Assembly: GCA_024643625.1 (NCBI GenBank)
Contig: JAHEMO010000002.1
Span: 5,561 to 50,867, forward strand
Direction of reading: 5' to 3'
Source of the DNA: Chitinophagaceae bacterium
GTDB taxonomy: Bacteria > Bacteroidota > Bacteroidia > Chitinophagales > Chitinophagaceae
Length of the DNA: 45,307 bases
The notes under the pieces: generated by a model
What the model saw: only the letters and a program-made list of their open reading frames with translations
Database searches by the model: none
Told to the model about the DNA's origin: nothing
Program-made: the position numbers and the translations under genes
In this document: piece after piece, positions 20,670 to 27,787 of the stretch
How positions within the stretch are numbered: position 1 is the first letter of the stretch
How the letters are laid out: every line of letters begins with the position of its first letter

Positions 20670-20672
20670 TTA

Positions 20673-20736
20673 TGTGCGAAACAGCAGCAATAATGTGCAG
20701 AACCCCGCACAAAATGTGCTAAAATCTGTGCTAAAC
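20673..20736 (+). repeat. Four direct repeats of TGTGCnnAAM (candidate operator array)
   Basis: TGTGCGAAAC at 20673, TGTGCAGAAC at 20694, TGTGCTAAAA at 20715, TGTGCTAAAC at 20727; spacing 21, 21, 12 bp. Confidence 0.6.
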
Positions 20737-20762
20737 AGGTTTATATCAAAGGGCCTTTTTTT

Positions 20763-20794
20763 TTGGCTGCAATACCATTGAAGCGCTACTTTTA
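20763..20794 (+). promoter_or_regulatory. Putative Bacteroidota promoter (TTG ... TACTTTTA) of the candidate ncRNA
   Basis: TACTTTTA (7/8 of TAnnTTTG) at 20787-20794 with TTG at 20763, spacing of about 21 bp. Confidence 0.4.
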
Positions 20795-20795
20795 T

Positions 20796-21166
20796 GTTGT
20801 CAATGAGTTCTTTAACACCACGGCCAAAAATTGCTGAAGCAGCGACTAAAGTCTTCGGACTGAAACAAAGCAACGGCGAAACAGAACCAAACTGGTTCCG
20901 GTCAAGATCCAATAGCGACGTAACAGAAGCAGAAAGGAACTGAGATCGCAGTTGTTCGGTTATGTTTAATGTTTGCAAGTTCAAACTGTCAAAGGGGAGG
21001 AGTGCATTTATTAGGTATAAAAGAATGCCTGAATTGGCCATTCAATAGTGTATCGGTAAAACGGTGCCGAATGGTTAGGCTTTTGGGGTTAAATGAATGA
21101 ATTGATACAACTAGAACACATCAGCGGGATACGCAAGTATCACTAACCGCTGATGTTTCTTTTTTT
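20796..21166 (+). ncRNA. Candidate structured non-coding RNA, family not recognised
   Basis: Long-range closing helix (20796-20816 with 21088-21111; 19 pairs plus tandem G.A mismatch), six or more internal hairpins, and a strong terminator at the 3' end. No convincing ORF over 50 codons. Confidence 0.6.
21118..21166 (+). terminator. Intrinsic terminator ending the candidate ncRNA
   Basis: ACATCAGCGG ... CCGCTGATGT (10 bp), inner GATAC-GCAA-GTATC (5 bp, GNRA loop), then TTTCTTTTTTT. Confidence 0.85.
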
Positions 21167-21177
21167 AGTAAAAACGA

Positions 21178-21207
21178 CAAACCCCGATGCAGTTGCACCG
21201 GGGTTTG
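21178..21207 (-). terminator. Intrinsic terminator downstream of ahcY
   Basis: CAAACCCCG ... CGGGGTTTG 9-bp stem, followed on the minus strand by TCGTTTTTAC. Confidence 0.8.
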
Positions 21208-21228
21208 TTTATGAAAAAACCTACTTAA

Positions 21229-27702: not shown

Positions 27703-27773
27703 GGTACCGTGGCCGAGTGGCTAGGCAGAGGTCTGCAAAACCTCGTACAGCGGTTCGACTCCGCTCGGTACCT
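27703..27773 (+). tRNA. tRNA-Cys (anticodon GCA), CCA not encoded
   Basis: GGTACCG...CGGTACC acceptor stem, discriminator T, D-arm GGCCGAGTGGCTAGGC, anticodon loop CTGCAAA, T-arm GCGGTTCGACTCCGC. Confidence 0.93.
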
Positions 27774-27787
27774 CAAAACATCAATCA

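Follow-up and report, generated by a model that had tools for sequence, protein, structure and literature searches.

Among known free-standing bacterial RNAs, CsrB, CsrC, and RsmZ, the CsrA-sequestering sRNAs, end in an intrinsic terminator and carry a variable count of similar hairpins. Within Bacteroidota, the closest described counterparts are the FopS/GibS sRNAs of Bacteroides thetaiotaomicron, intergenic RNAs with sigma-ABfr-type promoters and Rho-independent terminators that have been linked to the RNA-binding protein RbpB (PMC11697453). The promoter form of sigma-ABfr, the primary sigma factor of Bacteroidota, is TTTG / TAnnTTTG (PMC7366714). Other points of comparison are the widely distributed, free-standing 6S RNA, and tmRNA and RNase P RNA, which are near 365 nt in size and have a closing stem.

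A locus that combines several of these traits lies in the 45,307-nt stretch of Chitinophagaceae DNA analyzed here in its entirety (the window), flanked by an ABC exporter gene on one side and ahcY on the other. We are confident, short of certainty, that positions 20715-21166 constitute a free-standing gene for a structured ncRNA of about 365 nt, a divergent and enlarged member of an unrecorded, Chitinophagaceae-wide family; its transcription is inferred, there being no expression data. Its features are as follows:

20715-20746, plus strand: operator of three direct repeats, TGTGCTAAA, TGTGCTAAA, and AGGTTTATA, with periods of 12 and 11 bp
20762-20766, plus strand: -33 element TTTGG, its spacing from the operator being that fixed throughout the family
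20787-20794, plus strand: -7 element TACTTTTA, 20 nt past TTTGG as in nearly all members
20796-21166, plus strand: predicted ncRNA of about 365-370 nt (fold z -3.9; family context), its 5' end, at about 20796-20801, inferred from the promoter
20796-20827, plus strand: closing stem, 5' strand, pairing with 21080-21111 (-25.9 kcal/mol, reached by 0/500 shuffles)
20850-20861, plus strand: hairpin AGUC-UUCG-GACU within the multibranched body, in the minimum-energy fold
20884-20898, plus strand: hairpin GAACCA-AAC-UGGUUC, in the minimum-energy fold
20986-20997, plus strand: apical loop CUGUCAAAGG, its letters identical to the repeated loops of a 14-hairpin relative (L236)
21053-21066, plus strand: apical loop AUCGGUAAAACGGU, resembling GACGGUAAAACGGA of another relative (L230)
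21080-21111, plus strand: closing stem, 3' strand, in the minimum-energy fold
21114-21166, plus strand: intrinsic terminator with stem CAUCAGCGG/CCGCUGAUG, GCAA loop, and T tract

The segment 20790-21170 folds better than its dinucleotide shuffles (z -3.9; 0/100 shuffles as good), and the signal persists when the terminator is removed (z -3.4). The earlier note, made from the sequence alone, had placed a structured RNA at 20796-21166, and its sequence and coordinates agree with the letters. The long closing stem, the cUUCGg hairpin, the GAACCA/UGGUUC hairpin, and the strong GCAA-loop terminator that it described are all present in the minimum-energy fold, and the TAnnTTTG-like element that it saw ahead of the closing stem is the -7 element listed above. 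Some of its small hairpins (AACUG/CAGUU and the local UUGCUG/CAGCGA) are missing from the minimum-energy fold, which gives these segments other partners. It also overlooked the upstream three-box operator, such that the start of the element should be moved to about 20715. The single window copy of the CUGUCAAAGG loop motif is not above chance.

The identity of this RNA was assessed against known classes. No Rfam 15 covariance model (6S, SRP, SAM/SAH riboswitch, FopS, and others) matched the window RNA at its gathering score, and a permissive search with E up to 5 returned only weak chance matches, none covering the RNA body. The CsrB/RsmZ models matched neither the window RNA nor the family members, and the tmRNA and RNase P RNA models had no match at this locus. 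The earlier note could not match the RNA to RNase P, tmRNA, 6S, SRP, or a SAM/SAH riboswitch, and Rfam gave no such match either; two outcomes that it had named as fatal to its proposal, membership in a known Rfam family (even at permissive thresholds) and protein-coding character, did not occur. The RNA contains no plus-strand ORF of at least 60 aa, and a 123-aa ORF antisense to it (window 20670-21041, minus strand) belongs to no Pfam family and is probably a chance frame. A second hairpin, AAACCCCGATGCA..TGCACCGGGGTTT, at window 21175-21215, where most of the weak chance Rfam matches near the element fall, is likely to be the terminator of the convergent ahcY gene. The sole gathering-level Rfam match in the window is a tRNA-Cys (gca) at 27703-27774.

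By analogy, the three-box family, as we term it for its operator, shares with CsrB/CsrC/RsmZ the free-standing gene, the terminator, the variable hairpin count, and purine-rich, GGA-containing unpaired parts; however, its GGA lies in internal loops, its apical loops are of the GNRA or GUCAAA type, and it is without an Rfam match. Like the FopS/GibS RNAs, its members are intergenic Bacteroidota RNAs with a sigma-ABfr-type promoter and a terminator, but FopS is multicopy and made up of a single-stranded 5' stretch and a terminator, whereas the three-box RNAs are mostly single-copy and highly structured. The 6S RNA is comparable as a free-standing structured RNA of wide distribution but is one long bulged hairpin, in contrast to the three side-by-side hairpins or multibranched body seen here. 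The resemblance to tmRNA and RNase P RNA in size and closing stem is countered by the presence of both of those genes elsewhere in the window's genome.

Direct searches with the window RNA recovered no relatives: blastn against 200 relatives found only its own copy, blastn against plasmids and phages nothing beyond that copy, and nhmmer and word-7 blastn against 111 exporter and ahcY loci only chance matches; ten weak blastn matches within the genus, when examined, had no paired ends and were mostly coding by eye. The lack of homologs, a further outcome that would have refuted the earlier proposal, thus appeared to be true by blastn but was overturned via synteny, operator/promoter, and terminator. 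Across 80 genomes examined for the ahcY neighborhood, the exporter ortholog never adjoins ahcY elsewhere and, therefore, the ahcY side yields no synteny. On the exporter side, a genome of the same genus (G008) has a different RNA of about 415 nt in the corresponding position, following the same ABC exporter (about 60% identical to that of the window), with a divergent cbs-like gene also present. The promoter TTTGG-N20-TACATTTA and a terminator both lie within the 600-bp intergenic stretch at this G008 locus. In three further genomes of the genus (G006, G002, and G009), another gene occupies the place behind the exporter, and the complete genomes G006 and G009 show no element.

Some side observations pertain to the exporter loci. 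The gene occupying this place in the three RNA-lacking congeners (L003, L004, and L021) is convergent and GMC-oxidoreductase-like by eye. In most of the family (L006-L016), the region past the exporter holds a sigma-ABfr-type promoter and a small, conserved gene, the latter coding for a protein of about 120-135 aa (MESxYSKRI-AGKRRTYFFDV) that is PUR-domain-like by eye. Immediately ahead of the RNA locus, the reading frame of the G008 exporter (L018, contig C4) is broken near codon 490 by a frameshift or a stop.

The placement of the segment directly behind the exporter in both the window's genome and G008 raises the alternative that it is a long 3' UTR or attenuator of the exporter, or acts as antisense control of ahcY. 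We give this reading very little credence because a promoter and an operator of its own precede the segment, the family is found elsewhere behind unrelated genes (yajQ and others), and the other exporter orthologs are without the element.

When the G008 stretch was used as a query against 399 Chitinophagaceae genomes, many were matched through a 3' motif, GAAAGCATCGGGTTAGTAAGTA, the matches sharing a common terminator hairpin with a promoter located 73 to several hundred bases upstream. Three direct repeats, TGTGNATAAC / GGTGCANAAC / GGTGCATATC, stand ahead of this promoter, recurring with periods of 12 and 11 bp and at a constant distance from TTTGG; the -7 element follows 19-20 nt past TTTGG in nearly all members. 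The window operator fits this pattern with one mismatch (0 expected in the window) and is the sole such site in its genome. A position weight matrix built from 80 other members, with the window and G008 excluded to avoid circularity, scores the window site at 31.0, the runner-up within the window reaching -15.4 and the maximum in 814 kb of background being -6.4. The members score between 43.8 and 90.5 and G008 scores 70.9; the window is hence the weakest of the set, yet far above background.

A 52-nt operator probe, comprising the three boxes and TTTGG and allowing at most two mismatches, was found in 89 of the 399 Chitinophagaceae genomes, usually in one copy, as against about a dozen matches for a reversed-pattern control, and the terminator model R1 matched 98 of the 399. 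A family-form terminator follows the operator in 79/81 loci, compared with 33/810 shuffles and 0/6 chance operators; both this gene layout and the usually single copy are shown computationally. The family spans at least 37 genera of Chitinophagaceae. It looks confined to that group because a class-wide search of 395 genomes, allowing one mismatch in the operator pattern, matched the window's own genome alone. In each of four genomes (G331, G214, G232, and G314), the terminator model or the operator matches twice, pointing to possible paralogous RNA genes. Neither compact nor long members matched Rfam, and no report of the family was found in the literature searched, with most subscription journals and all supplements out of reach.

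The operator allows for another interpretation, namely, that the locus is a DNA site whose boxes are the DnaA boxes of an origin or of a DnaA-titrating site. In its favor, box 1 is the exact DnaA consensus TTATNCACA in 41/81 members. Against it, boxes 2 and 3 usually misfit the consensus, as does box 1 of the window, and the promoter spacing is fixed, while an RNA fold that covaries and a terminator lie downstream. An origin of replication is excluded in G411, where the GC-skew curve puts the element toward the terminus; the element of G032 is nearer the minimum. The DNA-site explanation is hence very improbable, and control of the operator by DnaA is no more than a lead, albeit a possible one.

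The evidence that the three-box loci specify a structured RNA comes from the 22 compact members, which were aligned by sequence alone. They display three hairpins in which 26 of 35 pairs have compensatory changes and 93.8% of the cells pair, and 0/500 shuffles reach any of five measures of this fold; when the partner is displaced by one to three columns, the pairing falls to 37-46%. This three-hairpin covariation shows computationally that the family is a structured RNA family. Compensatory changes, which the earlier note had wanted tested in the closing stem, are thus strong in the compact members; for the window's own closing stem, their only support is that two same-genus RNAs, which cannot be aligned, both form the stem. 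As a family-wide feature, the closing stem was rejected, medium-size members carrying side-by-side hairpins.

The predicted lengths range from about 106 to 730 nt; the shorter members cluster near 106-116, 137-158, or 178-214 nt, and the long ones span 297-730 nt. In the recurring hairpin unit, a purine-rich internal loop separates an outer stem from a short inner stem, which is capped by an apical loop of the GNRA, UUCG, or GUCAAA/GUAAAA type. One or two such units plus the terminator make up the compact forms, L237-L239 have three, and L236 (G026) has about fourteen in a row; this difference in hairpin number among relatives, from one to about fourteen, is also directly shown by computation. 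The loop motif occurs 51 times in compact members against an expectation of 9 and is also enriched in L236 and L229. The most conserved letters of the family are those of the 5' arm of the terminator, which remain constant while the 3' arm toggles between GAUGC and GGUGC; the UUAGUAAGUAUA part is wholly different in several clades.

The assignment of the window RNA as a divergent, enlarged member rests on its operator/promoter layout, its position, and its exporter synteny with G008, and not on the RNA sequence. Of the features that mark membership, the operator, the fixed spacing to TTTGG, and the -7 element 20 nt further on are all met. The terminator with the GAAAGCAYYGGG 5' arm (model R1) has no match in 20700-21200; in the expected place lies a strong terminator of other sequence, which gives only a loose match to the family motif with 6 mismatches. 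The body has a significant fold, with loops that are family-like by eye only, and is not alignable with the family. A third member from the genus, L188 in G005, combines a weaker operator (17.0) with the family terminator and an RNA of about 590 nt. It forms a closing stem positioned as in the window (-26.9 kcal/mol, 0/500 shuffles), although the RNAs are not alignable in sequence.

The lack of an R1 match, the unalignable body, and the absence of the element from the complete same-genus genomes G006 and G009 could be taken as signs of decay, the window copy then being a relict in which the promoter and operator survive and the RNA function is lost. However, the copy retains a fold far better than that of shuffles, an intact closing stem, and a strong terminator, the very features that a relict should lose first; we consider this explanation unlikely. 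The best-supported reading is that the window RNA is an independently transcribed, lineage-specific, unrecorded structured RNA, even though its transcription has not been shown. The suggestion in the earlier note of an uncharacterized, possibly lineage-specific RNA class is thus supported but incomplete, the window holding just one divergent, enlarged representative of a family found across Chitinophagaceae.

Gene neighborhoods offer a hint regarding function. The yajQ gene (PF04461) lies directly upstream on the same strand in 54/82 loci, and in 49 of these 54 the L31 gene rpmE2 (PF01197) lies downstream, whereby yajQ - RNA - rpmE2 is likely to be the ancestral arrangement. About a third of the members sit away from yajQ, with unrelated genes upstream; the window copy is likewise not at this locus, which is not required for membership. 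The YajQ family has been described as nucleic-acid binding, and E. coli YajQ binds GTP and tRNA (PMC4199771).

We infer a protein-binding role because the stems covary, the purines of the loops and internal loops are kept, and whole units are gained or lost, much as in sponge or scaffold RNAs like CsrB. Under this proposal, a regulator (itself inferred) acting on the three direct repeats would set the transcription of the RNA gene, and the RNA would act in trans as a multivalent protein-binding RNA. Its docking sites would be the repeated hairpins, each with a stem, a purine-rich internal loop, a short stem, and a GNRA- or GUCAAA-type loop, through which it would sequester or scaffold one RNA-binding protein. 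As partner, YajQ would be the first candidate, given the ancestral neighborhood and the nucleic-acid-binding description of its family. The trans action, the protein binding, and the identities of the partner and regulator are all inferences. In the absence of binding data, multivalent protein binding with any partner remains a tentative idea that we would not yet favor over its negation, and is more doubtful still with YajQ; the statement as a whole, joining family identity to this mechanism, is likewise one that we would sooner question than assert. Speaking against it, the adjacency to yajQ may be incidental; the members that exceed 250 nt and have a confirmed terminator, the window and G008 included, are all away from yajQ, and the conserved 5' arm of the terminator is also compatible with a base-pairing seed. 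A bolder version, with an expandable class of multivalent RNAs, a single gene in each genome, a dedicated three-box operator possibly linked to DnaA, one to about fourteen docking hairpins, and the widespread protein YajQ as the one bound, appears unlikely.

The main rival to this mechanism is a trans-acting base-pairing sRNA, the seed of which would be the 5' arm of the terminator with the internal loop (AAAGCAUCGGGUUAGUAAGUA) or a loop, and whose variable hairpins would merely stabilize the molecule. The constancy of the 5' arm in the face of a toggling 3' arm, which is not demanded by structure alone, and the organization of the FopS sRNAs of Bacteroides as a 5' seed plus a terminator (PMC11697453) both favor it. 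On the other hand, UUAGUAAGUAUA is wholly changed in several clades, the window is without the motif, and base-pairing has no need of an expansion to 14 similar hairpins. This rival remains possible.

What is new here is a covariation-supported RNA family absent from Rfam 15 and from the literature searched. The novelty sits at the level of the RNA family, and the mechanism may prove to follow an established principle. It is unusual for a regulatory RNA to evolve as this one does, with a hairpin number that runs from one in some relatives to about fourteen in another. The defined operator, promoter, and ends, together with a conserved neighbor, yajQ, of poorly understood role, provide experimental handles. 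With about a quarter of the genomes examined carrying the family, an unknown layer of gene regulation in Chitinophagaceae becomes testable.
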